From Lacrimispora saccharolytica (GTDB taxonomy: Bacteria; Bacillota; Clostridia; Lachnospirales; Lachnospiraceae): 64,000 bases of DNA. This document shows positions 18,385 to 36,807 of the stretch, piece by piece. The stretch spans positions 62,001-126,000 of the forward strand of contig JADYUL010000002.1 in NCBI GenBank assembly GCA_021531795.1, read 5' to 3'. Under the pieces are notes generated by a model that saw nothing but the letters and a program-made list of their open reading frames with translations, had not been told where the DNA came from and did not search any database. Made by a program: the position numbers and the translations under genes. Numbering within the stretch: position 1 is the first letter of the stretch; every line of letters starts with the position of its first letter.

Positions 18385-19467
18385 ATGGCAAGAGTTTATA
18401 ACTTTTCCGCAGGTCCGGCAGTTTTACCTGAAGAAGTATTAAAAGAAGCTGCAGCAGAAATGATGGATTATAAGGGATCCGGAATGTCCGTTATGGAGAT
18501 GAGCCATCGATCCAAAGTATATGACACCATTATCAAGGAAGCTGAGCAGGATCTGAGAGATCTTATGAATATTCCCGATAATTATAAGGTGTTATTCCTT
18601 CAGGGTGGTGCAAGTCAGTTCTTTGCTGAAGTACCCATGAATATGATGAAGAACAAGAAGGCAGGATATATCATCACAGGCCAGTGGGCTAAGAAGGCAT
18701 ATCAGGAGGCTAAGATATACGGTGAGGCCGTAGAGCTTGCATCAAGTGCTGACAAGACCTTCAGCTATATTCCCGACTGCAGTGATCTTCCTATTACAGA
18801 TGATATGGATTATGTATACATCTGTGAGAATAATACAATTTACGGTACAAAGTATAAGACCTTACCTGATACAAAGGGCAAGATACTTGTATCTGACGTG
18901 AGCAGCTGCTTTTTATCTGAGCCTGTGGATGTAACCAAGTACGGAGTAATCTATGGTGGTGTTCAGAAGAATGTAGGTCCTGCAGGCTGTATAATTGCAA
19001 TCATCAGAGAAGACCTTATAAGTGATGATGTACTTCCCGGAACACCTACCATGCTTAAGTGGAAGACTCAGGCTGACAATGATTCTCTTTACAATACGCC
19101 TCCATGCTACACCATCTATATCTGTGGCAAGGTATTCAAGTGGCTCAAGAAGATGGGTGGACTTGAGGCTATGAAGGAACTCAATGAGAAGAAGGCTAAG
19201 ATTCTCTATGATTATCTGGATGAGAGCAAGCTCTTCAAGGGAACAGTCGTTAAGGAAGACAGATCTCTTATGAATGTTCCTTTTGTAACAGGAGATGCAG
19301 AACTTGATGCTAAGTTTGTGGCTGAAGCTAAGGCTGCAGGCTTTGAGAATCTCAAGGGGCACAGAACAGTTGGCGGTATGAGAGCAAGTATCTACAATGC
19401 TATGCCTATTGAGGGCGTAGAGGCACTTGTGGAATTTATGAAGAAGTTTGAGAAGGAGAATGCGTAA
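18385..19467 (+). CDS. serC: Phosphoserine aminotransferase
   Basis: PLP enzyme that converts 3-phosphohydroxypyruvate and glutamate to phosphoserine and 2-oxoglutarate. The 360-residue protein shows the SerC opening YNFSAGPAVLPEEVL, the SGMSVMEMSHRS motif, the PLP-lysine region YGGVQKNVGPAG and the C-terminal GHRTVGGMRASIYNAM. AAGGAG precedes ATG 18385. serA starts on the last base of its stop codon. Confidence 0.97.
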   Translation: MARVYNFSAGPAVLPEEVLKEAAAEMMDYKGSGMSVMEMSHRSKVYDTIIKEAEQDLRDLMNIPDNYKVLFLQGGASQFFAEVPMNMMKNKKAGYIITGQWAKKAYQEAKIYGEAVELASSADKTFSYIPDCSDLPITDDMDYVYICENNTIYGTKYKTLPDTKGKILVSDVSSCFLSEPVDVTKYGVIYGGVQKNVGPAGCIIAIIREDLISDDVLPGTPTMLKWKTQADNDSLYNTPPCYTIYICGKVFKWLKKMGGLEAMKELNEKKAKILYDYLDESKLFKGTVVKEDRSLMNVPFVTGDAELDAKFVAEAKAAGFENLKGHRTVGGMRASIYNAMPIEGVEALVEFMKKFEKENA

Positions 19468-20630
19468 TGTATAAGTATCATTGTCTGAATCCTATAGCAC
19501 AGGTGGGCCTTGACGGATTTGATAACAGATATATTAAGACTGATAACTATGATGAGGCTGAGGGTGTACTCGTAAGATCTGCAGCAATGCATGATTTAGA
19601 GATCCCTGAGAAGCTTCTCTGTGTAGCAAGAGCCGGTGCGGGTGTTAACAATATCCCTCTTGATAAGATGGCTGAGAAGGGTGTTGTAGTATTCAATACC
19701 CCGGGTGCCAATGCCAATGGTGTTAAGGAGCTTGTATTTGCAGGTATGCTCTTAGCATGTCGTGATATCACAGGCGGTATTGACTGGGTAAAGGCTAATA
19801 AGGATGATGAGAATATTGCCAAGACAGCAGAGAAGGAAAAGAAGAATTTCGCCGGAACTGAGATCATGGGCAAGAAGCTGGGTATTATCGGACTTGGTGC
19901 AATCGGTATCAGAGTAGCTAATGCTGCTAAGCATATGGGAATGGAAGTATACGGATATGACCCTTATATTTCAGTAGATGCTGCATGGAGCCTTAGCAGG
20001 GATATCAAGCATGTAACCAATCTTGATGATATCTTCACTAACTGTGATTTCATAACAATCCATGTTCCTCTTATGGATTCAACTAAGAATACGATCAATG
20101 CCGAGGCTATTGACAAGATGAAGCAGGGCGTTGTAATCCTTAACTTCGCAAGAGATGTTCTCTGTGATGAGAAGGCGATCCTTGAGGGTATCAAGGCAGG
20201 CAAGATCAGAAAGTATGTATCTGACTTCCCGAATCCTACAACAGCAGGTAAGGAAGGTTGTATCGTTATTCCTCACCTTGGAGCCTCAACAGAGGAGAGC
20301 GAGGATAATTGTGCAATTATGGCAGTTAAGGAGATGAGAGATTATCTTGAGAACGGTAATATCCGCAATTCCGTTAACTTCCCTGCAATTGATATGGGAG
20401 TCTGTGAGAAGGTCGGTAGAGTTGCCGTATTCCATAAGAATGAGCCCAACATGATCGCAAGCTTTACCAGGGTATTCGGTGATAACGGAATCAATATCTC
20501 AGACATGTCTAACAAGAGCAGGAAGGATGTTGCTGTATCAATGTTCGACGTTGAGACTAAGATTACTGATGAAATCAAGGAGCAGTTAGCTGCAGTTGAT
20601 GGAGTATTCAGGGTAAGAGTTGTTAAGTAG
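19467..20630 (+). CDS. serA: D-3-phosphoglycerate dehydrogenase
   Basis: NAD-dependent enzyme of the first step of serine synthesis. The 387-residue protein has the substrate domain (VARAGAGVNNI), the Rossmann dinucleotide motif GLGAIGIRVANAA near residue 140, catalytic-site motifs through GASTEESEDN and a short C-terminal ACT-type domain (about 315-387) that could bind serine. It overlaps serC by one base. A phosphoserine phosphatase gene (serB) is not next to it; a DUF1015 gene is. Confidence 0.95.
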   Translation: MYKYHCLNPIAQVGLDGFDNRYIKTDNYDEAEGVLVRSAAMHDLEIPEKLLCVARAGAGVNNIPLDKMAEKGVVVFNTPGANANGVKELVFAGMLLACRDITGGIDWVKANKDDENIAKTAEKEKKNFAGTEIMGKKLGIIGLGAIGIRVANAAKHMGMEVYGYDPYISVDAAWSLSRDIKHVTNLDDIFTNCDFITIHVPLMDSTKNTINAEAIDKMKQGVVILNFARDVLCDEKAILEGIKAGKIRKYVSDFPNPTTAGKEGCIVIPHLGASTEESEDNCAIMAVKEMRDYLENGNIRNSVNFPAIDMGVCEKVGRVAVFHKNEPNMIASFTRVFGDNGINISDMSNKSRKDVAVSMFDVETKITDEIKEQLAAVDGVFRVRVVK

Positions 20631-21129: not shown

Positions 21130-22350
21130 ATGGCTTTAGTTAAACCCTTTGCGGCAATCATGCCAAAGCTTGGAATGGAGAAGCTGATAGCAGCGCTTCC
21201 CTATGATGTATACAACAGAGAAGAGGCAGTTGAGGTGGTTAAGAATAACCCCGATTCCTTCTTAAGAATAGACAGAGCGGAGACCAATTTCGGACCTGAG
21301 ACAGATACTTATGCAGACTGTGTTTATGACAAGGCTAAGGAGCTTATTAATACCTGGATTGAAGAGGGCAGGCTGGTGAAGCAGGATAAGCCCATGTTCT
21401 ACATATATCAGGAGATTATGAATGGCAGACCACAGACAGGTATTGTGGGCTGTGCTTCCGTTGCTGATTATGAGAACAATATAATCAAGAAGCATGAGAA
21501 TACCCTGGCAGCCAAGGAAGCTGACAGAATCAGACATATCGATACTACCAATATGCAGACCGGTCCTATTTTCTTAGCCTTCAGAAGCAATAAGGAGATT
21601 GATGCTTTCCTGGCTCAGAAGACTGCTAAGAAGCCTTACTATGATTTCATATCGGAGGATGGAATTACGCATAAGGTCTGGCTCGTAGATGATGATGCTG
21701 AGATAGAGTCAGTCGAGGGCTATTTTGCAGCAATGAATGCAATATACATTGCGGACGGACATCACAGATGCGCATCTGCCTGCAAGGTATCAGCCAAGCG
21801 CCATATAGAGGGAAAAGTGCAGGAGTCTGACTTCTTTATGAGCGTATTATTTCCGGAGAATCAGCTCAAGATCATGGACTACAACAGGGTGGTGAAGGAC
21901 CTAAACGGCTATGATGTAGCAACATTCCTTGAGGAGCTGGAGACCTATTGCCATATAGGTGGAAGTGATATTCCGGTTAAACCCGCTAAGAAGGGTCAGG
22001 TCGGAATGTATCTGGACGGACAGTGGTTTAGTTTGGAGTTTAAGACAGAGTATTTAAGCGACGATCCGGTTGAGGGACTTGATGTATCAATCCTTCAGAA
22101 GTATGTTCTGGACGGAATGCTTGATATAAAGGATCCGAAGAATGATAAGAGAATAGATTTTGTCGGCGGAATCAGAGGCTTAGAAGAACTGGAACGCAGA
22201 GTTAACAGCGACTGCAGAGTGGCCTTTGCCATGTATCCGACAGATATCAATGAGCTGTTTGATGTGGCGGATGCTTCCAGGCTGATGCCGCCTAAGAGTA
22301 CATGGTTTGAGCCTAAGCTTCGCAGCGGACTGTTCTTACACAGCATATAA
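21130..22350 (+). CDS. DUF1015 family protein
   Basis: A 406-residue protein matching the DUF1015 family by its opening (VKPFAAIMP, LPYDVYNREEA), FLRIDRAE and the central IADGHHRCASA motif near residue 210. No membrane or signal sequence is visible. The family's function is not established to my knowledge. The DGHHR motif resembles that of ParB/Srx-fold free-serine kinases (SerK, SbnI), and the gene lies beside serC-serA; a role in phosphoserine or serine metabolism is therefore a reasonable guess but unproven. ATG 21130 follows GGAGAGG. The glgB-like gene follows 14 bases later. Confidence 0.85.
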   Translation: MALVKPFAAIMPKLGMEKLIAALPYDVYNREEAVEVVKNNPDSFLRIDRAETNFGPETDTYADCVYDKAKELINTWIEEGRLVKQDKPMFYIYQEIMNGRPQTGIVGCASVADYENNIIKKHENTLAAKEADRIRHIDTTNMQTGPIFLAFRSNKEIDAFLAQKTAKKPYYDFISEDGITHKVWLVDDDAEIESVEGYFAAMNAIYIADGHHRCASACKVSAKRHIEGKVQESDFFMSVLFPENQLKIMDYNRVVKDLNGYDVATFLEELETYCHIGGSDIPVKPAKKGQVGMYLDGQWFSLEFKTEYLSDDPVEGLDVSILQKYVLDGMLDIKDPKNDKRIDFVGGIRGLEELERRVNSDCRVAFAMYPTDINELFDVADASRLMPPKSTWFEPKLRSGLFLHSI

Positions 22351-22364
22351 TCGGAGGTGATCAG

Positions 22365-24464
22365 GTGAAGGATAAGCTATATAAAATGATGGATTGGCCC
22401 GGAATCGAGGCTATAGTTTATGGCGAGGAGAATTCTCCACAGAACCTTCTCGGAAGACATTCGACAGCTACCAATACACTGTACCAGTGCTTCTTCCCGG
22501 ATGCCAAGGAGGTCAAACTGTGTATTGAATCCGAAGGAAGAGACGCCAAGGAGTATGTTATGGAGATGGCAGACGAAGAGGGCTTTTATGCCTGTGCCCT
22601 GCTTGGCAAGGTTAAGGATGATTATTCTTACATAGTCACTGATATTAACGGCGTGAAGAAAACTGTTAAGGACCCGTACTTCTACAGTGCCATGGTGAAG
22701 ATTGAGGACAGCAAGAAGTTCAATTCGGGTTCTGAGACAGAGGCTTATAAATATATGGGCGCTCACGTGGAGACCATTGACGGAGTGAAGGGCGTAGCCT
22801 TCAGAGTCTGGGCACCCAATGCCATGAGAGTGTCAGTTGTGGGCGATTTTAACGCATGGAACGGCAAGGCCAATCCGATGATGAAGGACGAGGAGAGCGG
22901 AATATTCACACTCTTTATCCCCGGACTTGCAGCCGGATGCGAGTATAAATATGAGATTAAGGGTCATGGCGGACTTGTGTTCATGAAGCTTGACCCATAT
23001 TCCTACGAGTGCAATGATGGCAAGAGCGTGGTGCCGTCCAACATACGATACAAGTGGGAAGACAAGGAATACTTTGATGCAAGAAGCGGTGCTAAGCTTG
23101 ATGCGTCTCCTGTCAATATCTATGAAACGGAAATAGGCCGTGTAGTCGATAAGAAGGGTGAGCTTTCAAAAAGTGCAATAACTGCCCTAATAGATTATCT
23201 CAAGAAGATGGGCTACAACTATCTTAAGCTTACCATGAAGGGTGATGACAGCTACATGCTGCCTGCAGGTGTAAGTGCTTCAAACGTTAAGAATCTTGTT
23301 AATGCGCTTCATAAGGAGAATATCGGTATTCTTTACACCTGGAATCCAAGCTTCTTTACTGTAACCAATGAGGGCATGAGCAAGTTCGACGGTACATATC
23401 TGTACGGACATATGGATATGCGCAAGAGATATAATAATGCCTTTGGCGGATTCTATTATAACTACGGCAGGGAAGAGGTACTGTCATATTTGTATTCCGC
23501 AGCCAACTACTGGATGAAGGAATTTCATATGGATGGCTTCCACATAGAGGGTCTGTCAAGCATGCTCTATCTGGATTATGCCAAGTATGACGGTGAGTGG
23601 ATAGCCAATATCTACGGCGGACATGAGAATCTGGAGGCTATTGAGTTCATCAAGGAACTGAATCTTAAGCTTCATAAGGCATATCCTTATGTAATCATGA
23701 CTACCAGAGAGGAGAGCGCCTTCCCGAAGGTAACTTCTTCGAATAAGGATGGCGGACTCGGTTTTGACTTCGTATATAACAACGGATTTACGGAGGATTA
23801 TCTGAGCTTTATTAAGGGAGACAGAGCCTTTGAAGAACTTCATATGCTCACAGACCACTTCGCATATGAATATTCTGAGAATTATATATCTGCCCTCTCT
23901 AAGGAGACTGTGCTTGCAGCCAATGATTATGACTATGTAAGAGTTAAGAACGGAGCGAGATTCGTTGATTATGTACCGGTTCCGGATGAGAATAAGGGAA
24001 CTGTTGTTAGAGCAACACTTGCTTTCTTCATGGCGCATCCCGGTAAGAAGTTAATGTATTGCGGTCAGGATGATGAAAACTTAAGTCTTGCGCTTGGACA
24101 ACTGTATAACACAGAACCTGCGCTATATTCACTTGATAATAGTCCATATGGAATCGAGTGGATCAATAACCTCGATAAGGGTGACGGCGTGCTCAGCTTC
24201 ATCAGGAAGAGTGAGAAGGCAGAGGATATGATTATTGTCGTATGCAACTTCTCATGTAAAGATATCAATAATCATAAACTGGGTGTTATGAGACCGGGTA
24301 AATATAAACAGATATTCAACTCCGAGGATAAGAAGTTCGGCGGCAAGGCAGCAACTGCTGTCAAGCCTAAGGAGACTGTGGAGGAATTCTATGAGGGAAG
24401 ATATCATACAATCACCATTAAAATACCTGCAATGTCTGTATCATATTATAAATATGTTGAATAA
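22365..24464 (+). CDS. Glycogen branching enzyme (GlgB, GH13) homologue with altered catalytic residues
   Basis: Full-length 699-residue protein with GlgB architecture: N-terminal branching-enzyme module (residues 1-100), CBM48 (about 115-210, FRVWAPNAMRVSVVGDFNAW), GH13 barrel (about 245-560) and a C-terminal beta domain. Every conserved GH13 catalytic region is changed relative to GlgB. Region I DWVPGHF reads TWNPSFF (T325, F330). Region II R-x-D reads H393-I-E395. Region III AEEST reads TREES, with R448 at the acid/base position in a gapless alignment. Region IV HD reads K513-E514. The fold is recognisable but branching activity is doubtful. The frame is intact and codon use matches its neighbours, so it is not a decayed gene. 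GGAGGTGA precedes GTG 22365; a terminator follows the stop. Confidence 0.88.
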   Translation: MKDKLYKMMDWPGIEAIVYGEENSPQNLLGRHSTATNTLYQCFFPDAKEVKLCIESEGRDAKEYVMEMADEEGFYACALLGKVKDDYSYIVTDINGVKKTVKDPYFYSAMVKIEDSKKFNSGSETEAYKYMGAHVETIDGVKGVAFRVWAPNAMRVSVVGDFNAWNGKANPMMKDEESGIFTLFIPGLAAGCEYKYEIKGHGGLVFMKLDPYSYECNDGKSVVPSNIRYKWEDKEYFDARSGAKLDASPVNIYETEIGRVVDKKGELSKSAITALIDYLKKMGYNYLKLTMKGDDSYMLPAGVSASNVKNLVNALHKENIGILYTWNPSFFTVTNEGMSKFDGTYLYGHMDMRKRYNNAFGGFYYNYGREEVLSYLYSAANYWMKEFHMDGFHIEGLSSMLYLDYAKYDGEWIANIYGGHENLEAIEFIKELNLKLHKAYPYVIMTTREESAFPKVTSSNKDGGLGFDFVYNNGFTEDYLSFIKGDRAFEELHMLTDHFAYEYSENYISALSKETVLAANDYDYVRVKNGARFVDYVPVPDENKGTVVRATLAFFMAHPGKKLMYCGQDDENLSLALGQLYNTEPALYSLDNSPYGIEWINNLDKGDGVLSFIRKSEKAEDMIIVVCNFSCKDINNHKLGVMRPGKYKQIFNSEDKKFGGKAATAVKPKETVEEFYEGRYHTITIKIPAMSVSYYKYVE

Positions 24465-24494
24465 AAATAAGGGCTGCATTGCAGCCCTTATTTT
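24464..24494. terminator. Terminator after the GlgB homologue
   Basis: A 14-bp perfect stem with an ATT loop (24464-24477 / 24481-24494); its ends are A and T runs, giving a typical intrinsic terminator directly after the stop codon at 24464. Confidence 0.9.
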
Positions 24495-27003: not shown

Positions 27004-28200
27004 ATGGAGTCAAATCAGGAGACATATTCACTTAGAGGGCGAACCTTTCGAACGAAGACTGACTATGCCAGGGCCTGGCATGACAACAGAGTCATCACTC
27101 AGATAGAGGCAAGCCTTAACAAAAGTGATATTACTCAGGTATCCAATCTAAGAAGGTCGCTGGAGAATAACAAGATTAAGTTCGAATCCATTCTGGGTCA
27201 GGATTTCTTAGATGAAATCGTAAGCCTGGAACAGAAGCTTCTAACCGAAGACACAGAGGTAGAAGCGATAGATAAGAGGGCAACCATTAAGAAGAATAAG
27301 CTTAAGGACAAGGCTTCCAAGTCAGATAGTAACACGAAGTTAAAGACTAAGAAGCCTAAAGCGGAAAAAGCGCGAGCTCTTGATGATTATGACCCTGACA
27401 TGAAGCATGAAATATTAAGAGAACTAAAAAAAGCTCAGCGCAGAAGAAGCATTCTTCTGTCGGTTCTTGGACTATGTGTAGTGTTCAGCGTCGGTTATCT
27501 GATTTATTATTATTCTTACTATGAGAAGAATGATATTGAATACAGTGAGCTTTCCACTCTTGTCAAAGAGGACAGCGGTGGTACTGTAGAGATAAATTAT
27601 ACTGAGAAACAGGACAAACCGCCTATTCTTAAGAAGTATGAGACTCTCTACAACAAGAACAGGAAGCTTATCGGATGGCTAAAGATTGAAGGCTGTGACA
27701 TAGATTATCCTGTAATGCAGACCTCAAATAATGAATATTATCTGGACCATAATTATAATCAGGAATATGATAAGAACGGTTCGCTTTTCTTAGACAAGGA
27801 TTGTGATGCGGCATTTCCGAACGATAACATGATTATCTACGGTCATCATATGAAGTCAGGAAAGATGTTCGGAAACCTGAATTATTATTCCAAGGAAAGC
27901 TTCTGGGAGGATAATAAGGAATTTACCTTCGATACGATATATGAGACCGGAACCTATGCTGTTATGTATGTGTTCAGGTCAAAAATATATAGTGAAGAGG
28001 AGATAGTCTTCAAGTATTATCAATTTATCGATGCGACAAGTGAGAATGAATTCAACTCCAATATGGAAGAGATGGCGAATATGTCATTGTATGACACAGG
28101 AGTAACGGCAAGCTACGGAGACAGGCTTATAACACTGTCGACCTGTGATTCCTCGGAGGAAGACGGAAGATTCGTAGTTGTAGCCAAGAAGATAAAGTAG
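27004..28200 (+). CDS. srtB: Class B sortase with long N-terminal cytoplasmic extension
   Basis: Membrane transpeptidase that attaches proteins to the cell wall. The C-terminal half (about 200-398) is a class B sortase: catalytic His in YGHHMKSG (H281), nucleophile in LSTCD (C381) and Arg in DGRFVVV (R389). A single membrane segment lies at about 150-171. Before it comes an unusual region of about 148 residues, first a mixed helical part and then a Lys-rich stretch (about 85-125), whereas typical SrtB has only a short cytoplasmic tail. No clear ribosome site precedes ATG 27004, 5 bases after leuS, so coupling or another start is possible. Likely substrates are the two SPxTG proteins downstream. 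Confidence 0.9.
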   Translation: MESNQETYSLRGRTFRTKTDYARAWHDNRVITQIEASLNKSDITQVSNLRRSLENNKIKFESILGQDFLDEIVSLEQKLLTEDTEVEAIDKRATIKKNKLKDKASKSDSNTKLKTKKPKAEKARALDDYDPDMKHEILRELKKAQRRRSILLSVLGLCVVFSVGYLIYYYSYYEKNDIEYSELSTLVKEDSGGTVEINYTEKQDKPPILKKYETLYNKNRKLIGWLKIEGCDIDYPVMQTSNNEYYLDHNYNQEYDKNGSLFLDKDCDAAFPNDNMIIYGHHMKSGKMFGNLNYYSKESFWEDNKEFTFDTIYETGTYAVMYVFRSKIYSEEEIVFKYYQFIDATSENEFNSNMEEMANMSLYDTGVTASYGDRLITLSTCDSSEEDGRFVVVAKKIK

Positions 28201-28207
28201 GCAGGAT

Positions 28208-28753
28208 ATGTATAAGGATATCTATGATCAGGCAAAGAATGTTGCCGGGGAAATAATTGAGACAGCAAAGCTATGTAAGGGACAGATTCTTGTCGTAGGC
28301 TGTTCCACAAGCGAAGTCTGTGGCGATAAGATAGGAACTAATTCAAGTCCGGATGTAGCAAGGGCGGTCTTTGGCGGTATCTATGATGCCTGCAGAGAGA
28401 AGGGCGTATATGTAGCTACCCAGTGCTGCGAGCATCTGAACAGAGCCATTATTATTGAAGCCGAGGCTGTACCCGGAGCAGAGATAGTAAATGTGGTTCC
28501 GTATCCCAAGGCAGGTGGTTCACTGTCTACGGTAGCCTATGAAACCTTTGAGGAACCTGTAGCTCTTGAGGAAATCAAGGCTGATGCAGGAATTGATATA
28601 GGCGGTACACTTATCGGTATGCATCTAAAGAAGGTGGCTGTTCCTGTAAGACTTGAGCACAACACCATTGGCAAAGCTCATGTTATTGCAGCAAGAACCA
28701 GAGCCAAATTTATCGGCGGCGACAGAGCCCACTATAATGATGAGCTTAAGTAA
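28208..28753 (+). CDS. TIGR01440 / DUF436 family protein (YwlG-like)
   Basis: A 181-residue cytoplasmic protein of the conserved Firmicute family TIGR01440. Recognisable segments are LVVGCSTSEVCGDKIGTNSSP, QCCEHLNRAIIIE and DIGGTLIGMHLKKVAVPVR. Function is unknown. It lies 7 bases after the sortase gene with AGGA ahead of ATG 28208, and a strong terminator follows, so it ends the leuS-srtB-DUF436 transcript. Confidence 0.88.
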   Translation: MYKDIYDQAKNVAGEIIETAKLCKGQILVVGCSTSEVCGDKIGTNSSPDVARAVFGGIYDACREKGVYVATQCCEHLNRAIIIEAEAVPGAEIVNVVPYPKAGGSLSTVAYETFEEPVALEEIKADAGIDIGGTLIGMHLKKVAVPVRLEHNTIGKAHVIAARTRAKFIGGDRAHYNDELK

Positions 28754-28761
28754 CTATTATG

Positions 28762-28807
28762 GCGAGGTATGAGTACTATATTAGAGTACTGAATACCTCG
28801 CTTTTTT
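28762..28807 (+). terminator. Terminator after the DUF436 gene
   Basis: A long hairpin: GCGAGGTAT pairs with ATACCTCGC and AGTACT with AGTACT (arms 28762-28777 and 28785-28801, small internal bulge, 7-base loop), followed by six T residues (28802-28807). Confidence 0.9.
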
Positions 28808-29057
28808 ATTTGGATATTTTGAATAAATTGTTCTTTTTTGTCTTTGTCAGATAGAATCAGACTTCTTATTTCTACTAAATTTTGTATATTCTTCTTGAAA
28901 AATCACCAATATATAGTAAAATTAATATAATAATCAATAAAAAATATACTATGGGAGAAGTGTGTCCAAAAATGGATATGCTTTTTCCTAAGTTAATATG
29001 TGCATATTGCCGATATATGTAATGAGATATTGTGTTTTCTGACTTAAGGAGAAGTCC
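28808..29057 (+). promoter_or_regulatory. AT-rich leader and promoter region of the first LRR gene
   Basis: About 250 bases without a gene. It contains a perfect TATAAT at 28926-28931 without a good -35 box, and TTGAAA at 28895-28900 without a well-spaced -10. Transcription presumably starts here and leaves a leader of about 120 bases. I see no known riboswitch or strong hairpin in it. AAGGAG at 29046-29051 is the ribosome site for the ATG at 29058. Confidence 0.4.
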
Positions 29058-32000
29058 ATGAGAAAAGCAAGTAAGAAGCAAAACAGAAGATTAAAGAGAA
29101 CAGTGAGGCGAACAATAGGTGCGCTTTGTTTGATTTCCGCAATAACCATAGCAGCAATCCCTGTTCCTGAGAATATGGCATATGATCCTGCTACAGCGGA
29201 TGTGCCCAAATATCCTAAGCTTGAGTATGATAGTAGTGGTAATCCAATACGAAATAATAATGGGTCTGCAGGTTATCTTAAAATTGATGATACTAATGTG
29301 CCTGGATCAGACACATCATATACAAAAAATAATACAGCTTTTGTTATATCAAAAACTTCTACCGGAGACTATCAGCTAGATTGGCAGTTTGATTATTACG
29401 CTGCCTCAGATGGAGCTAACGGATATATTGTAAAATACAATGATCAGTATCAGGTTGATGAAGTTGAACTAAATCATAGAGTGTATTCAGATTATGTTAA
29501 TATACCCGAAGCACAGGAGAAATTATTTTTCGATAGTACTGATGCTGAGGTTTCTATCGACATATATTACGGTGATATAAAAGCAAATACGATTGGGTCT
29601 GTAAAGACTTTGGGACATCAATATAAACTAACAGGTGACCCTAATAACGTGGCCGAAACCTCACAGGTTGACCATGACTTTTTTTATAATAATTTGAGAG
29701 CAGAATATGATGCTTATAAGTCGCAGTATGATAATTATATTTTGTACAAGGATACTGATAAAGCGTCATCTTATCCCAAGCCAGAGGATGTTGTAAGGAC
29801 TTATAAGAATGTTTATACTACAGAAACTGCACAAATGCAGTTTTTGTGCGACCAGTTGTTTGGAACTGGTACATCAATGTCATTGCAGATAGTTGATAAA
29901 CGATTATATGATTCAAATAATCAGCCTACTGCTTGGTCAAAGGTATATGTTCCAAAACTTTCTTCTCTTCCAAATGGTGATGGAAAGACTATAACAATTC
30001 AAGGTACATCATATTATTTTGATAATAATCTGTTTCTGGCTAATAAATTCGGCGCCATTATAGGTGTAGCAAAAAATGCATTTAAAGATGTAAAAAATGT
30101 TAGAACACTCACGATGGCAAAGGAAATATCTTCGATAGGAGATTCAGCGTTTGAAAATAGTTTCCTTCAGTCAGTAACAGTTTCGTCTGATGCAAAAATT
30201 GGAAACAGGGCATTTGCAGATTGTATTAGACTTACTTCTGCTACGCTCCCTGAGGGCGTTGGACAGATTGGAACGGAGGCTTTTACGGGCTGTCCTTTGG
30301 AAACCATAACAATTCCTGACAGTGTTACCGAAATTGGAGATGGAGCTTTTTATAATTGTCAGAGATTAAAAGAAGTAAAATTTTTGGCATTAGGAGCTGC
30401 GAATAAAACAATTGGAGATGGAGCTTTCTATGACTGTGTAGGCTTAAATTATGTTGATTTTAGCGTTGAAGACAACGGGGCAAGCTGTTCGATTTCTATG
30501 ATGGGTGATGCGGCTTTTGCTGTATCTTCTCAGGAAACTGGAAATATGAGTGTTTTTCAGTTTCCCAATTCAATTGTATCCGGAGATAGTATAGGCAGTT
30601 ATTTGTTGGGAAATAGGAAAAAGCTTAATACAGTTATTCTTCCGACTAACCTTGGAGTAACCACTCTTGAGGATACCTTTGTTTACAAATGTGTTAATCT
30701 TGAAAGCGTAGTTTTTCCTGACGGGGCAAATCAGGCAAGCTATGACCCCTCAACTTTCTATTCAGTTACAAATCCTAATTTTTATGTAAGAGGGCCTAAA
30801 CTAAATACTAATAATACAGCAGCAAATTGTAGAAAAGCTACATGGAAAGCCTTGTTTAATTACAATACCACTGAGAATAATGGCAAACACGTGCCGTATG
30901 TCTATAATGAGGGTGGCGTTGATTATTATGAGGTTAGTGATGGAACCTATTCTATGATAATAAACAGTCAGACCGGAGAACTTACTTCGTGTACATTTGC
31001 TGAAGGGGCTACTGTATCTGATATTGGTACTGATCCGCAAGATCCGTTTACGATTCCTGCGCTGGTTGGAACAACCACAGTAACCGGAATAAAAGATGGT
31101 TGTTTTAATGGTGGTGAATTAACGGGAGTTCTTGATTACATAGTATATCTGGAAATTGAAGATGGCAGTAATATTACTTCATTAAATGACAGTTGCTTTG
31201 AGGGTGCAAAAAAACTGAAGGGTGTTGTAATAGGAGATAGTGTAACAACAATCGGAGCAAAGGCGTTTAATAACTGTGGCGCTCTTGAAAAGGTACAAAT
31301 TGGTCCTTCTATTGAAAAGTTGGGAGATTCTGCATTTAACGATTGTAAACAACTTACTGATATTTATTTTGAGAAACCGTACCAGACTAATATTAATAGT
31401 GGAAACTATATAAAAAAAGAAGATATTGGAGCCAACGCCCTTACAACCGGAAGTGATAAGCTTACTGTTCATGGTACGATAATCCCTGATTATGGTCCGT
31501 TTGCCTGGTCAATGGCAGAGGATAATTTTGTAGATAATAGAACAGGTCTTAGAGTATGTTACAATTCACCTGCGCCTGATAACCTTACGGTTATTCTTGA
31601 CAATACAAACTTATTACCTACATTGGTGGATTATCCTCATTATGAGTATTTACCGGAGGGATTAAGAAATAATATTGAATCTAATGCTACGCTTGATTCT
31701 GTTGATGACCAGTATGCATATAACTGTACAAGAGATATTGTTATTCCGGCCGGAGTTAAATCCATAGATGTTAAGCACTTTATTAATGCAACATCAGAAG
31801 GATCTGCTACAGGTCTTACTAACGGCAAAAGTGCTGATACATATCTAAGGGATAATCCTGATTTTAAGTATTACAATCAGTACAAGGATTATGGATTGTT
31901 CAACGGATATTATGGAATGAATAAAGATACCACTGATGGAACTACAATAATAGGAACTGGAACAGACGCATACGAATACAGTCCAACAGCATCCGATAAG

Positions 32001-33932
32001 GTTAAGTATGAAAAGAATAATCTCGGTAATGACAGAATTACATCTGTTGTTATGAGCGATGTTGAATATCTTCCGGATAAGGCCTTTGAAAACTGTGAAA
32101 GACTGGGATTGGTTAATCTTGGAGGAGCAATGCAGGATGTAGGTGTTCTTCCGTTCTATGATTGCGATAATCTTGTGACTGTTGGTTGTGGTAACGGTAC
32201 ATATGTTGCCAATAATGGAATTCTGTATGAGAATCTGTCAGACGGAAGTAAGAAGATAATAGAATGCTTTGCCTCGAGAGGTGGTGCAGTTGGTTCTTCA
32301 ACAGTTGATACCGATGCAGATCCGGATTTAGCCAATGTTAGGGAAATTGCCAATAATGCCTTTGATGATTGTGATCAGATAAGGTTTGTTGATTTCACTG
32401 ATGCTGATAATATTTCAACAATACCGGAAGGCTGCTTTAAGAATTGCGATAATCTAAGGACAGTAGAGCTTCCTACCACTGTATCTTCTGTTGAGAAGGA
32501 TGCATTTACTAATATGAAATCGGATGTTGAGATAGTGGCAAGGAATAAAACTCTATTCCTCTCAAGCGGCGCAATAGATAATAAGGGAGGAAACACACCG
32601 TATTTTGTAACATATAAGGATTCTCAATCCAGAAAATATGCCAAGGAACAGAAGGCCAATATCGACAAGACATTGGATGACAGCTTTATTGTAAGATTCT
32701 TTAACCATGATGGTACTGTACTTCTTAAAACTGATTTTGTTCAGGAAGGAAAAGCGGCAACCCCGCCTGATGATGATGAGATTCCTGACAGAACTGCAGA
32801 AGGTTTTGTATTCGATAAATGGAGTATTGATATAAAGAATATTACAGAGGATTGTTTTGTACTTGCTCTGTATAAGGCTGTTGGAAATGTTACTCCCGGC
32901 GTAACACCCGGCGTAACTCCCGGTGTGAATCCAGGCACCACACCAGGTACTAATCCCGGAACAACACCCGGTGTAACACCCGGAAGCGGTGGCTCGGGCT
33001 CAGGAGGAAGCAGCAGCACTAAGTATACATTAACAGTAGTATACGGTAGTGGTTCAGGTCAGTATGCTGAAGGAACCAAGGTTATTATTGAAGCTATTGA
33101 CGCTCCTGCCGGTAAGGTATTTGATAAGTGGGTAGTTACAGGTGCGCCTGCGACTATCTATAGCTCAACAAGTAAGTCAACTACCATTACTACTACAAAC
33201 GGAGATACCGCGGTTACAGCTACCTACAAGGATGCTACATCAGGAAGCAGTAGTGGAAGCAGTTCTTCTTCATCTACAGGTGCTACAGGAACGACAAACA
33301 GAAATAATACCGGAACTAACGGAGGAAACTCAGGTAATAGTGGAACGGGTGGAAATAGTGGTACATCCGTTAATATTACTAAACCCGGTATTTCTGATAT
33401 TGATAAGGCATATGCTTCAGTGTCAGGTTCTACAGACAATTTTGTAGTAAAAGTTACTGAGAGTCAGGAAGCAGCTAATGCTGTTGCGACTGCTTTAGCA
33501 AATAAGTATCCTGACATGACCGGAATAAAGTATTTTGCCATGGACATTAATTTGTATGATGTCACAGGAAACAATCAGATTACTGATACAAGCAACCTGT
33601 CTGTTAACATTACCATGCCTCTGCCTGATGCACTACGTCAGTATGCAGGTAATAACAGGGCAGCATCTGTAATAAACGGTAACCAGCTTGAAGATCTGCC
33701 GGCTAAGTTTGTAACGGTTGACGGAGTGCCATGTATCAGCTTTACAGCCACACACTTCTCACCCTATGCAATATATGTAGATACCAATAATCTTACATAT
33801 GGAACAGCGGACTACTCACCTAAGACAGGTGATCCTATTCATCCGAAGTGGTTTGTGGTAATTGCACTTGCTGCAACCTCACTTATTCTCTTCCTTAAGA
33901 AGGATAAGGTGATTGTACCAAGAGCAGTATAA
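29058..33932 (+). CDS. Large secreted BspA-type LRR surface protein with SPKTG sorting signal
   Basis: A 1624-residue wall-anchored protein. A basic N-terminus with a hydrophobic segment (about residues 20-36) is the signal peptide. A region of about 275 residues of unknown type follows. Then come blocks of BspA-type leucine-rich repeats (LRR_5: IGDSAFENS, IGNRAFADC, IGTEAFTGC, IGDGAFYNC, IGAKAFNNC) at about 330-560 and 690-800, and again at about 990-1180. An InlB B-repeat-like module (about 1215-1275), eight [VT][TN]PG tetrapeptides (from 1278), a second InlB-like module, a Ser/Gly/Asn-rich linker and a C-terminal beta domain complete it. The end is SPKTG (1587-1591), a membrane helix and a basic tail. 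Such repeats often bind host or plant surfaces, but the partner is unknown. The first two thirds look more AT-rich than the rest. Confidence 0.88.
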   Translation: MRKASKKQNRRLKRTVRRTIGALCLISAITIAAIPVPENMAYDPATADVPKYPKLEYDSSGNPIRNNNGSAGYLKIDDTNVPGSDTSYTKNNTAFVISKTSTGDYQLDWQFDYYAASDGANGYIVKYNDQYQVDEVELNHRVYSDYVNIPEAQEKLFFDSTDAEVSIDIYYGDIKANTIGSVKTLGHQYKLTGDPNNVAETSQVDHDFFYNNLRAEYDAYKSQYDNYILYKDTDKASSYPKPEDVVRTYKNVYTTETAQMQFLCDQLFGTGTSMSLQIVDKRLYDSNNQPTAWSKVYVPKLSSLPNGDGKTITIQGTSYYFDNNLFLANKFGAIIGVAKNAFKDVKNVRTLTMAKEISSIGDSAFENSFLQSVTVSSDAKIGNRAFADCIRLTSATLPEGVGQIGTEAFTGCPLETITIPDSVTEIGDGAFYNCQRLKEVKFLALGAANKTIGDGAFYDCVGLNYVDFSVEDNGASCSISMMGDAAFAVSSQETGNMSVFQFPNSIVSGDSIGSYLLGNRKKLNTVILPTNLGVTTLEDTFVYKCVNLESVVFPDGANQASYDPSTFYSVTNPNFYVRGPKLNTNNTAANCRKATWKALFNYNTTENNGKHVPYVYNEGGVDYYEVSDGTYSMIINSQTGELTSCTFAEGATVSDIGTDPQDPFTIPALVGTTTVTGIKDGCFNGGELTGVLDYIVYLEIEDGSNITSLNDSCFEGAKKLKGVVIGDSVTTIGAKAFNNCGALEKVQIGPSIEKLGDSAFNDCKQLTDIYFEKPYQTNINSGNYIKKEDIGANALTTGSDKLTVHGTIIPDYGPFAWSMAEDNFVDNRTGLRVCYNSPAPDNLTVILDNTNLLPTLVDYPHYEYLPEGLRNNIESNATLDSVDDQYAYNCTRDIVIPAGVKSIDVKHFINATSEGSATGLTNGKSADTYLRDNPDFKYYNQYKDYGLFNGYYGMNKDTTDGTTIIGTGTDAYEYSPTASDKVKYEKNNLGNDRITSVVMSDVEYLPDKAFENCERLGLVNLGGAMQDVGVLPFYDCDNLVTVGCGNGTYVANNGILYENLSDGSKKIIECFASRGGAVGSSTVDTDADPDLANVREIANNAFDDCDQIRFVDFTDADNISTIPEGCFKNCDNLRTVELPTTVSSVEKDAFTNMKSDVEIVARNKTLFLSSGAIDNKGGNTPYFVTYKDSQSRKYAKEQKANIDKTLDDSFIVRFFNHDGTVLLKTDFVQEGKAATPPDDDEIPDRTAEGFVFDKWSIDIKNITEDCFVLALYKAVGNVTPGVTPGVTPGVNPGTTPGTNPGTTPGVTPGSGGSGSGGSSSTKYTLTVVYGSGSGQYAEGTKVIIEAIDAPAGKVFDKWVVTGAPATIYSSTSKSTTITTTNGDTAVTATYKDATSGSSSGSSSSSSTGATGTTNRNNTGTNGGNSGNSGTGGNSGTSVNITKPGISDIDKAYASVSGSTDNFVVKVTESQEAANAVATALANKYPDMTGIKYFAMDINLYDVTGNNQITDTSNLSVNITMPLPDALRQYAGNNRAASVINGNQLEDLPAKFVTVDGVPCISFTATHFSPYAIYVDTNNLTYGTADYSPKTGDPIHPKWFVVIALAATSLILFLKKDKVIVPRAV
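32889..32984 (+). repeat. Eight tandem 12-base units coding for [V/T][T/N]PG
   Basis: Eight in-frame tetrapeptide units (VTPG three times, VNPG, TTPG, TNPG, TTPG, VTPG) form a proline/glycine spacer between two extracellular modules. The DNA units vary in the third base, so slippage-driven length change is possible but not strongly favoured. Confidence 0.85.
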
Positions 33933-33940
33933 TAGACTTG

Positions 33941-33967
33941 AATTGCCCTGCAATCTGCAGGGCAATT
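33941..33967. terminator. Hairpin between the two LRR genes
   Basis: A perfect 12-bp stem (33941-33952 / 33956-33967) with a 3-base ATC loop lies 9 bases after the first LRR stop and 14 bases before the next start codon. No T-run follows, so it may be a processing or partial-termination site instead of a full terminator. Confidence 0.6.
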
Positions 33968-33981
33968 TACGATACAGGATT

Positions 33982-36807
33982 ATGAAAAAGAAGATAAGAA
34001 GGATTATAGGTGCAGTTCTTATACTGACATCAATATTGTTTTTCTTAATACCTGCACTTGACACAGAAGCTGTCGTGTTGGATCCGTTCCAGATGGACCA
34101 CGACTCGCTTGACAAGTATGAAGGCACAGCTATCACTGTGTCTGTTCCCGATGATGTTAAAACTATAGGTGCTGAGAGCTTCGCGGGTAATCAGACTCTG
34201 GCTCAGATTGATGTAGGCAAGAACACAAGGACCATTGAGCATGGAGCCTTTGCTAATTGTCCGTATCTATATTCAGTTACCACTCATGATAACCTTGAGG
34301 AGATTCAGACAGCTGCCTTTGCAGGGGATGGAAGACTTACAAGTATTAACCTGGGAGCAGCTGTAAGCGAACTTGGATATGGAGTCTTTGCGGGTTGTAA
34401 TAACTTATCTTCAATAACAATAAGCAGAAATAATGATAATTTCACTTATCTTAACGGCGCACTCTATGACAGGGATGGAGAATATCTCTATGCTTATCTT
34501 GGAGGATATACTTCGACCTATTATCGTATGCCTAATTCTGTGGAAGGCATGAGTAAGTATTGCTTCTGGGGTAATAATGTCCTGGACAGTGTATCAATCT
34601 CGCCCTATATAGAGACAATACCTGCTTATGCATTCTCCAACTGCAGAAATCTTAAGAAGGTAAACATTCCATACAGTGTCACAACCATAGATGCCAAGGC
34701 CTTTGAGAACTGTGTAAGCCTTGTAGATGTCAGTATTCCCGCAAGTGTCAGTTACATTGACCCGACAGCCTTTGACGGCTGCGTGAATCTTAATATCATT
34801 GCAGACCCGGGAACAGCTGCATATGAGTTCTTCCAGAATTTCGACAACAGCGATGTTGCTGATGCTGAAAGCGGAGATGTCAATGTGGTTATCTATCCCG
34901 ACGAAGAAGAGCAGGAGACTAACGACAACAATGACGGAAAGGACTATGATGAGTCCTACACCGGCTCTCTTGTGGACGCCAGCAAGGATCCGAGCAATGT
35001 AGATTATATGCCATCCTATAATCCTCTGGATGTAGTAGAGGAGAATATAGTAGCCAAGTCATTGATTGTAGGCGGCAATGCGGTGTTATTCTATAACCCT
35101 GAGGTAGTGGTCAACGGAAACGATTCTGATAACACAACGCCCACAGATCCTACTACAACAACCCATACTGACAGTGATAGCGACGATACCAATGAGACCG
35201 TAATATACGATTCTGCCAAGGGCGGATATCTTCCCAAGTACACCAGAGTTGATGACCGTATAGCCACACAGGCTTTCTATGGCAATGGTAAGCTTAATAG
35301 CTACGACATTCCTTCGGATGTAACCTATATTTCTGACTTCGCCTTCGCCAGAAGTGCACTAAAGAGTATAGATATTCCAGAAGGCGTGACCCATATCGGA
35401 TACGGTGCCTTCTATCATTGCGATAATCTTACAGAGGTTAATATACCTAAGACTGTGACAGATATTGAGGGCTATGCCTTCGCCAATACTCCCTACATGG
35501 CTGCGGCCAAGGCCAATACCCAGAATAACTTTATTATTGTCGGCGACGGTATTCTGTTATCCTTTACCGGTAACAGTGACAGAGTGACTATCCCTGAGGG
35601 TGTCAAGAAGGTTGCACCGGGTGCATTCCTTGATAATACCACGCTCAAAGCGGTGTCCATGCCATCCACACTTACAGAGATAGGAGAGGATGCCTTCAAA
35701 GGCTGCAGTAATTTGTCAAGCGTATCTCTTAATGAAGGACTTACAGCTATAGGTGACAGGGCATTTATGGAATGTCCTCTTACGAGTCTTGCCATTCCTA
35801 CATCCGTTAAGACCATAGGCCTTCGTGCAGTTGATTATTCATTTTCAGGCAAAAATGCTGAAACTAAGGTTGTTGTCCTATCCGGTAACAGTCTGCCTAC
35901 AGTATCATACGGTAAGACCTCTCAGAGACTGGAAAATGATGAATACAGGTGCGATTCTCTGTATAATGTTCTCTTTGCAGTAGTCGATTCCGCTGACGTT
36001 AACCTTGATGGAAGTGTACTTAAGAGCCCAAGTGGTTTCTCGGGAGTAGTATTGACCAAGAACAGGGATTCAGCAGGTAATGAGACGGGTAGTATGAGTG
36101 TGGTAGACAGCAATATCTTCAGTGATGAGGTGTTAAGCAGCCTGCCGGATACTGTGGATATAGACGGAAGTACTTATATTATAAAAGATATGGATAAGGT
36201 CACCCTGTCTGAAAATAAGATAAATGATAACCCTACTAAGGATTTGGATGTTCTCTTTAACGGTAAAATGAATGAAAACTATACAGCTACACTGTCTGAA
36301 GAACATAATGTAGGTACGCTATGTATTGATACCAACAATGACGGAGTACTTGAGAGTAAGTATAAGGAGCTGTTCGGAAATAACAATGAAGTGAAGATAT
36401 CGTCCTTTGATGTAAAGCTTACCGATTCATCAGGTGTTGTGAATATTGATAAGCTTGGAAGCTCATCGATAAATGTCAGCATGCAGATACCTGAGGGAGT
36501 GAAGGGTGATACCTATCATGCAGTTACCATAGATTCGGACGGTCAGCTCGAAGAACTTAAAACAATAGTAAACGAGACCTATAATACTGTTGACTTTACT
36601 ATGAGTCATATGGGTAAGGTCGGAATATATGCTACAGGAGCAGATAACAGTTCGGTAATACTTAAGAGTGGCAAGACAGTCAGGAATTACAAACTGGATG
36701 ATTCACCCAATACAGGAGATATGAGTCTGCCCATTCGAGCAGTTATTTCTCTTGGATTATTTGCTGCAGGATTATTCCTGGTCGTATACAAGAAGAGAAT
36801 AATATAA
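33982..36807 (+). CDS. Second secreted LRR surface protein with SPNTG sorting signal
   Basis: A 941-residue wall-anchored protein. The signal peptide is basic then hydrophobic (residues 1-32). BspA-type LRRs (SFAGNQTLAQIDVG, AFANCPYL, AFENCVSLVDVSIP) occupy about 45-280, an acidic Asn/Asp-rich linker follows, and a second LRR block lies at about 420-620. The C-terminal region contains a beta domain similar to that of the preceding gene (SINVSMQIPEG... then SHMGKVGIYATG). SPNTG (908-912), a hydrophobic helix and KKRII form the sorting signal. ATG 33982 is chosen because the MKKKIRR signal peptide starts there; its ribosome site (AGGA only 2 bases away) is poor. Probably cotranscribed with the upstream gene. 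Confidence 0.87.
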   Translation: MKKKIRRIIGAVLILTSILFFLIPALDTEAVVLDPFQMDHDSLDKYEGTAITVSVPDDVKTIGAESFAGNQTLAQIDVGKNTRTIEHGAFANCPYLYSVTTHDNLEEIQTAAFAGDGRLTSINLGAAVSELGYGVFAGCNNLSSITISRNNDNFTYLNGALYDRDGEYLYAYLGGYTSTYYRMPNSVEGMSKYCFWGNNVLDSVSISPYIETIPAYAFSNCRNLKKVNIPYSVTTIDAKAFENCVSLVDVSIPASVSYIDPTAFDGCVNLNIIADPGTAAYEFFQNFDNSDVADAESGDVNVVIYPDEEEQETNDNNDGKDYDESYTGSLVDASKDPSNVDYMPSYNPLDVVEENIVAKSLIVGGNAVLFYNPEVVVNGNDSDNTTPTDPTTTTHTDSDSDDTNETVIYDSAKGGYLPKYTRVDDRIATQAFYGNGKLNSYDIPSDVTYISDFAFARSALKSIDIPEGVTHIGYGAFYHCDNLTEVNIPKTVTDIEGYAFANTPYMAAAKANTQNNFIIVGDGILLSFTGNSDRVTIPEGVKKVAPGAFLDNTTLKAVSMPSTLTEIGEDAFKGCSNLSSVSLNEGLTAIGDRAFMECPLTSLAIPTSVKTIGLRAVDYSFSGKNAETKVVVLSGNSLPTVSYGKTSQRLENDEYRCDSLYNVLFAVVDSADVNLDGSVLKSPSGFSGVVLTKNRDSAGNETGSMSVVDSNIFSDEVLSSLPDTVDIDGSTYIIKDMDKVTLSENKINDNPTKDLDVLFNGKMNENYTATLSEEHNVGTLCIDTNNDGVLESKYKELFGNNNEVKISSFDVKLTDSSGVVNIDKLGSSSINVSMQIPEGVKGDTYHAVTIDSDGQLEELKTIVNETYNTVDFTMSHMGKVGIYATGADNSSVILKSGKTVRNYKLDDSPNTGDMSLPIRAVISLGLFAAGLFLVVYKKRII

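Follow-up and report, generated by a model that had tools for sequence, protein, structure and literature searches.

In plants and green algae, the GH13 protein ISA2 binds ISA1, and the ISA1/ISA2 complexes shift the balance between soluble and insoluble glucan beyond catalysis (available part of PMC12510319). In bacteria, the accessible portion of PMC11046441 describes an inactive GlgB in the GlgA-GlgB fusion of some members of the Chlamydiae. Second branching-enzyme genes are known from Lachnospiraceae: as far as the text at hand of each paper goes, Butyrivibrio hungatei MB2003 carries glgB2 (824 amino acids; PMC5716241), and Blautia obeum has three glgB homologues, derivation from other species and higher rates being the suggested explanations for the extra genes (PMC10395257). 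For E. coli GlgB, twelve oligosaccharide sites are reported; transfer of short chains, and possibly a compact glycogen, have been associated with the N1 domain (PMC6339891, in the part available). This report concerns a gene of Lacrimispora saccharolytica, also of the Lachnospiraceae, at positions 22365-24464 (+) of a stretch of 64,000 nucleotides (assembly GCA_021531795.1, contig JADYUL010000002.1, positions 62,001 to 126,000), referred to below as the window. The gene is an open frame of 699 amino acids with a GTG start; its product is a GlgB-type protein, named GlgB2 here, from which the GH13 catalytic residues are gone.

We believe that GlgB2 has been retained for a non-catalytic role in glycogen synthesis, as an alpha-glucan-binding partner or regulator akin to plant ISA2, and assign this reading a probability of about 0.6. 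Of the features expected of a pseudoenzyme of the ISA2 kind, these were found: the catalytic triad is broken in 18/18 orthologs of the genus while the fold is kept, an active-looking paralog (GlgB1) exists, and the gene is under purifying selection.

Catalytic positions and fold

GlgB2 was aligned to the GlgB1 of its own genome and to branching enzymes from the PDB, and all seven GH13 positions compared carry other residues. In region I (residues 320-332; 23322-23360, +) D335 is replaced by T325 and H340 by F330; in region II (23541-23549, +) R403 by H393 and the nucleophile D405 by E395; in region III (23706-23708, +) the acid/base E458 by R448; and in region IV (23901-23906, +) H525 by K513 and D526 by E514. 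The numbers and roles of Y300, D335, H340, R403, D405, E458, H525 and D526 are those which we take to apply to E. coli GlgB. The surroundings of the motifs align without gaps (FHMDGFHIEGLSSMLY, SENYISALSKETV); the tyrosine ahead of region I (E. coli Y300) is probably kept as Y297, judging by an 11-sequence alignment of the genus in which it is invariant, and the WGYQVTGYYAP loop is largely deleted.

The order of modules is that of GH13_9 GlgB: the N1 beta-sandwich (GlgB_N; residues 13-105; 22401-22679, +), CBM48 (residues 131-213; 22755-23003, +), the (beta/alpha)8 barrel (residues about 250-570; 23112-24074, +) and a C-terminal all-beta domain (Pfam Alpha-amylase_C; residues 599-697; 24159-24455, +). 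The barrel was recognised in an AlphaFold2 (AF2) model with Foldseek, the other three modules by Pfam. The Pfam model of the catalytic GH13 barrel, PF00128, has no match in the window GlgB2, nor did a PF00128 profile search of its own genome recover the protein. In NCBIfam, GlgB2 stays under the cut-off of all six GlgB equivalogs that it matches (e.g. 470.4/577, 457.6/741 and 424.3/463.95 bits).

The AF2 model, built with 29 sequences, has a mean predicted local distance difference test score (pLDDT) of 85.6 and a predicted template modelling score (pTM) of 0.86. Its top PDB matches in Foldseek are branching enzymes (5gr2, E 2.4e-67; 3k1d, template modelling score 0.87, root-mean-square deviation 3.6), as are the closest solved relatives by sequence. 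The substituted residues stand at or just past the ends of beta3 (321-326), beta4 (391-394), beta5 (444-448) and beta7 (507-511), so that the catalytic residues have not simply shifted out of register. Considering the established chemistry of GH13, a retaining mechanism would be expected to fail when R448 occupies the acid/base position and E395 that of the nucleophile, and GlgB2 is very likely inactive as a branching enzyme.

An earlier note on this stretch had described the GlgB module order with CBM48 in an intact frame and the same seven replacements, interpreted as substitutions in a retained fold. The description holds in every part: the frame and modules by Pfam, the AF2 model and Foldseek, the replacements by the alignment to GlgB1 and the PDB enzymes, and the retained fold by the pLDDT, the top fold matches and the gapless motif neighbourhood. 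Its proviso that intact catalytic residues might be found elsewhere in the barrel was examined as well, and the strand ends of the model put the substitutes at the catalytic positions.

Triad loss in the genus and beyond

An ortholog of GlgB2 is present in 18/20 genomes of the window genus (17 at full length, G016 over residues 1-603), and the 17 orthologs other than that of the window are only 49-56% identical to it. The triad is intact in none of the 18. The acid/base is K or R in all of them, position 514 is acidic in 18/18 and position 395 in 17/18, and residue 393 is H in 17/18. Two members (L011 and L013) keep both aspartates and have lost only the acid/base of the triad; by its residues, the window GlgB2 is the extreme case within its genus. 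Since the triad loss is common to 18/18 orthologs, a lone mutation, chance, a sequencing error or a pseudogene is ruled out. The earlier note had asked whether the substitutions define a clade; in the tree the triad loss does mark one, composed of the genus and a sister sequence, L040. The frame damage or relaxed constraint of a decaying pseudogene was not found, the frames being open in 18/20 genus genomes and the ratio of nonsynonymous to synonymous substitution rates (dN/dS) low.

The two remaining genus genomes are drafts. No GlgB2 was found in G004 (60% complete). In G017 (82% complete) GlgB2 lies in two overlapping frames (C21:18861-20329) with a separate N-terminal piece (C2:19-678), which is either gene damage or a draft-assembly error, the two being indistinguishable.

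Outside the genus, homologs were gathered by likeness to the degenerate query in a search of 397 genomes, and the proportions given here describe the matches listed, which are a part of all matches, rather than the family. The 148 listed homologs are the listed rows minus the window genus and G009, with L170 included as intact; a separate non-redundant alignment, also of 148 rows, left out L170, the fragments L121 and L125, and 29 near-duplicates of more than 95% identity. Residue states were read from the alignment. At least one triad residue is missing in 34/148 listed homologs, and all three are kept in 114/148. The patterns of loss vary: the nucleophile may be the only triad residue lost (D to N, P, V or A), the acid/base may be Q, K, D, T, N or A, or several residues are lost together. 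Q at the acid/base occurs in 29/148 non-redundant rows, all of which align R at D526 and keep D335, R403 and D405; we call this form the Blautia type. E458Q with D526R is seen in 18/18 Blautia loci (within L101-L134), including that of Blautia wexlerae (e.g. L104:8001-10301). In L050, E458Q is read by either method, and position 526 reads R or D depending on the method.

Of the three trees, all built without the motif columns, one implies 8 state changes, 7 of them forced by starred branches (148 rows), the mixture-model tree 10, 4 of them forced (74 rows, five long branches omitted), and the third tree 13, 8 of them forced (179 rows), the exact number being uncertain, as all three were "quick" searches without bootstraps and the 148- and 179-row trees flag long branches that meet. 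From these trees, triad loss appears to recur in several lineages of the second GlgB of Lachnospiraceae. N1, CBM48 and the C-domain are found in 29/29 members of the alignment set A2, the catalytic model in 13/29 and in 0/11 genus members. The triad of the Eisenbergiella GlgB2 is intact. The model of the B. wexlerae GlgB2 is weaker (pLDDT 79.9, several loops below 50) and was not used as evidence.

Selection, GlgB1 and the proposed role

For the genus pairs that lie closest together, three in number, the dN/dS values are 0.013, 0.030 and 0.056 (rough values, since dS is 1.0-1.7). Eight close pairs of the Blautia type lie at 0.053-0.087, and another two degenerate pairs at 0.083 and 0.157. For intact GlgB2 the pairs range over 0.032-0.084, which overlaps the closest degenerate pairs (0.013-0.087). 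The evolution of GlgB2 is thus far from neutral, and purifying selection keeps the gene. Within the genus, N1 is the best conserved domain of GlgB2 and the barrel the least, with mean pairwise identities of 68.1% for N1 (residues 1-112), 63.1% for CBM48, 53.5% for the barrel and 61.3% for the C-domain. The GlgB1 of the genus gives 73.1% for CBM48, 90.1% for the barrel and 73.6% for the C-domain, and the intact GlgB2 of other genera 49.4% for N1, 70.6% for CBM48, 74.8% for the barrel and 52.2% for the C-domain. These identities suggest that in the genus the constraint has passed from the barrel to the binding domains of the N-terminal half. At 20 positions, the genus has fixed a residue hardly used by intact GlgB2; since 16 of the 20 lie in the barrel, the barrel does not appear free to drift.

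A second, canonical glgB, which the earlier note had suggested looking for, is present in the same genome as a free-standing GlgB1 (L067:8211-10121) with all eight examined residues intact. The 11/11 further genus GlgB1 sequences examined are also intact (12/12 with this one). The genome also has glgC, a glgC-like neighbour (under the glgC cut-off), glgA and two phosphorylase genes; with these and GlgB1, both synthesis and breakdown of glycogen should be possible in the cell without GlgB2. A long GlgB1 match is present in 16 of the 18 GlgB2-bearing genomes of the genus, and fragments in G005; the match in G011 spans two internal stops and is excluded from the residue counts. Outside the genus, GlgB1 with intact residues was found in 24/24 searched genomes with degenerate GlgB2 (L218 being a fragment without the tyrosine column) and in six Blautia genomes, of which one is already among the 24. 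Among the genomes with intact GlgB2, 4/36 show no GlgB1. The GlgB1 counts outside the genus fit the proposal that GlgB2 can lose catalysis only if GlgB1 supplies the chemistry, but they are small and the fit is not a proof.

In the four genomes G034, G134, G227 and G358 (the first and the last of the same genus), the single strong GlgB match is an N1-bearing intact GlgB2. The absence of GlgB1 is judged there only by the single match, and GlgB2 may be the sole branching enzyme of these genomes.

We propose that N1, CBM48 and surface sites would let GlgB2 hold the alpha-glucan as it grows, and that GlgB2 would modulate GlgB1 and the glycogen synthase GlgA as a non-catalytic partner. It might offer chains to either of these two enzymes or cover surfaces prone to branching, and could thereby set chain length or granule architecture, much as ISA2 does with ISA1. 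Glucan binding, a scaffold role and a regulatory effect are all presumed here. Because triad loss recurs in several GlgB2 lineages, the non-catalytic role probably existed before catalysis was lost. In the genome of the window, N1 is present in GlgB2 and absent from GlgB1. Among the three options of the earlier note (a scaffold, a regulator or new chemistry), the two non-catalytic ones are favoured; new chemistry is less so, although positions 395 and 514 are acidic and 20 clade-specific residues are fixed.

A broader proposal is tempting, and we offer it tentatively, leaning against it on balance: the GlgB2 of Lachnospiraceae may be a widespread glycogen organiser selected for a non-branching function, its activity being an optional leftover lost about ten times, so that the inactive forms would be bacterial equivalents of ISA2. 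The Blautia form with E-to-Q and D-to-R changes (D335, R403 and D405 kept), including that of B. wexlerae, might then be a natural substrate-holding lectin shaping the stored glucan towards a starch-like form. B. wexlerae, a gut commensal, reportedly accumulates amylopectin (available part of PMC9388534); the term glgB is absent from the main text of that paper.

Several points weigh against the role proposed for GlgB2. N1 is also present in intact GlgB2 and is hence no mark of the inactive form. More distant degenerate pairs have a higher dN/dS (up to 0.120 within the genus, among pairs for which a value can be computed, and 0.157 for L045/L145). With dS above 1 in the listed genus pairs, their synonymous sites are almost saturated, and the pace of GlgB2 evolution exceeds that of GlgB1 about 1.6- to 3.5-fold when the same pairs of genomes are compared (e.g. 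dN 0.139 vs 0.051). The inverted conservation of the genus may not generalise, since the Blautia type does not have it (N1 62.4%, CBM48 70.8%, barrel 67.0%, C-domain 62.9%), and the 20 fixed residues point to a new pocket more than to a passive shell. Within the genus, the draft G002 (74% complete) has a degenerate GlgB2, and no GlgB1 was found in it, which makes this incomplete genome the exception seen to the association with GlgB1; in G005, GlgB1 is found in fragments only. No known glycogen gene adjoins GlgB2, the neighbours being genes of amino-acid biosynthesis, leuS and DUF1015. Finally, the binding of glucan, the interaction with GlgB1 and any phenotype of GlgB2 are predictions only.

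Some of these points could be read as slow decay, in which catalysis is dispensable as GlgB1 suffices and GlgB2 is on its way to loss. The redundancy with GlgB1, the evolution faster than that of GlgB1 and the dN/dS of 0.157 in one divergent degenerate pair agree with it, as do the gene split over frames and contigs in G017 and the failure to find one in G004, both drafts (82% and 60% complete). We consider decay very improbable, however, considering that an open ortholog is kept in 18/20 genus genomes though 17 of the orthologs share only 49-56% of residues with that of the window, that the closest-pair dN/dS overlaps that of intact enzymes, and that E458Q and D526R stand together in 29/29 non-redundant Blautia-type rows, with D335, R403 and D405 kept. 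An alignment artefact, with the true catalytic residues elsewhere in the barrel and the enzyme active, has in our opinion a negligible probability: Y297, E449 and the acidic residues at 395 and 514 do remain, but, going by the gapless neighbourhood (FHMDGFHIEGLSSMLY, SENYISALSKETV) and by where the strands of the model end, it is the substitutes that occupy the catalytic positions, and the acid/base is K or R in 18/18 genus members.

Two other explanations assign a different function to a retained protein. GlgB2 could be a regulatory or decoy protein, an inactive hetero-oligomer subunit that acts through direct contact with GlgB1 or glycogen synthase instead of holding glucan. The presence of GlgB1 in 24/24 searched genomes with degenerate copies outside the genus is in line with this, the ISA1/ISA2 complexes are a precedent, and contacts might be made through the charged C-terminal tail that many GlgB2 have; but the window GlgB2 itself has no tail and the draft G002 shows GlgB2 without GlgB1, so that we regard this explanation as unlikely, if still worth keeping in mind. 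We find it improbable that GlgB2 is a neofunctionalised enzyme whose barrel was rebuilt for another reaction or ligand (e.g. a phosphorylated sugar) with the help of the carboxylates at 395 and 514, K/R448, H393 and the fixed N327, Y345, R355, N357, T447, N473 and D497. The 20 sites fixed in the clade relative to intact GlgB2, 16 of them in the barrel, speak for such a change, together with the near-constant states of 395 (acidic in 17/18), 514 (acidic in 18/18), 448 (K/R in 18/18) and 393 (H in 17/18) in the genus. However, residue 395 can be D, E or S, and positions 325, 330 and 513 are highly variable, which is unlike a normal active site; no other domain of GlgB2 is as poorly conserved in the genus as the barrel, and different residues are lost in other lineages. 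A non-catalytic glucan-binding partner or regulator remains the reading we prefer.

The locus and comparison with known systems

A ribosome-binding-like GGAGG (22353-22357, +), read directly from the letters, stands 7 bases ahead of the GTG. The gene of a DUF1015 protein (Pfam; 21130-22350, +), a probable operon partner, ends 14 bases upstream of GlgB2, and a 14-pair hairpin with a short T-run (24464-24494, +; -20.9 kcal/mol, z -6.07), probably a transcription terminator, follows the stop directly; on account of both, GlgB2 looks like the last gene of a transcription unit with DUF1015. A consensus terminator scan does not have the hairpin at 24464-24494 among its predictions. Farther upstream lie serC and serA (18385-20630, +), which are upstream neighbours in many GlgB2 loci by tblastn synteny. 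The names serC, serA, leuS, leuB, ilvD and ilvB, and that of the PfkB-like kinase of L104 mentioned below, are assigned provisionally, some of them by Pfam family matches.

When the window neighbours were searched with tblastn, the order leuB-ilvD-ilvB-serC-serA-(DUF1015)-GlgB2 was found, whole or partial, in many genus loci and in Eisenbergiella. DUF1015 adjoins GlgB2 upstream in 17/18 genus loci and in most Eisenbergiella loci; most Blautia loci have the same gene order, whole or partial, with no DUF1015 detected by tblastn, and in B. wexlerae a PfkB-like kinase on the opposite strand sits between serA and GlgB2. Counted by hand, serA is upstream of GlgB2 in 41/62 loci and downstream in 2 (L107 and L111). 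It was not found in 19/62 loci, several of which are short contigs, though others carry roughly 8 kb of sequence upstream (L080-L082 of the genus; L094, L097, L100, L120 and L133). The gene order being shared in whole or in part across the groups, it supports one ancestral GlgB2 in one place for the genus, Eisenbergiella and Blautia, presumably with later rearrangements. A recent horizontal import of GlgB2 is not suggested: its codon usage and GC content resemble those of the DUF1015 neighbour, and the position of the locus is shared with relatives. The codon index of GlgB2 is the lowest among the eight genes compared.

Many GlgB2 across genera end in a Lys/Glu/Ala-rich, often repetitive C-terminal tail of some 35 to more than 140 residues (e.g. 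L102, L112 and L129). In the window no charged tail follows 24455, and this GlgB2 is the only full-length genus row without one. Elsewhere in the window, 27004-36807 holds a gene for a sortase-domain protein, a DUF436 gene and genes for two large proteins (1624 and 964 amino acids); BspA-type leucine-rich repeats were found in the latter, the only one of the two that was scanned.

As to the significance of the observation, repeated catalytic loss under continuing purifying selection amounts to a natural experiment, which indicates that the branching-enzyme scaffold has a non-catalytic role worth keeping. The respective parts of scaffold and chemistry in setting a glycogen or starch-like architecture thereby become testable in cultured gut bacteria. 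Such genes are listed in print as branching enzymes (in the available part of PMC5716241), yet in about a quarter of the listed homologs outside the genus (34/148, as above) the triad is broken.

GH13_9 GlgB of Type 1 (PDB 5gr2, 3k1d and 9u77) is like GlgB2 in domain order and fold, at about 28-30% identity in the fold search; it differs in that GlgB2 has all seven examined conserved-region residues replaced and scores below the GlgB equivalog cut-offs. GlgB1 of the same genome shares CBM48, the barrel and the C-domain with GlgB2 at 38% identity, whereas this GlgB1 and those of the genus have no N1 region ahead of CBM48 and keep all eight examined residues. The inactive GlgB of some Chlamydiae, as described in the portion of PMC11046441 available, resembles GlgB2 in its inactivity, which there comes from gene rearrangement and fusion and not from substituted residues in a free-standing retained paralog. 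B. hungatei glgB2 and the extra genes of B. obeum, compared with GlgB2 by description only, are listed as branching enzymes, and the accessible text of the two papers does not mention catalytic loss. A literature search, mostly without subscription papers, found no description of an inactive GlgB2 in these bacteria.

The closest parallel in our reading is ISA2. According to the part of PMC12510319 at hand, it is, like GlgB2, a non-catalytic GH13 paralog beside an active one, with an extra N-terminal beta-sandwich before CBM48 and comparatively fast evolution. The differences are that ISA2 is eukaryotic, of the debranching type (GH13_11), present in the common ancestor of its lineage and known in complex with ISA1, whereas GlgB2 is bacterial, of the branching type, marked by several losses and only proposed to have a partner. 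Non-catalytic GH13 paralogs and second GlgB genes in the family are thus known already; what is new here is their bacterial, branching-type and recurrent form.

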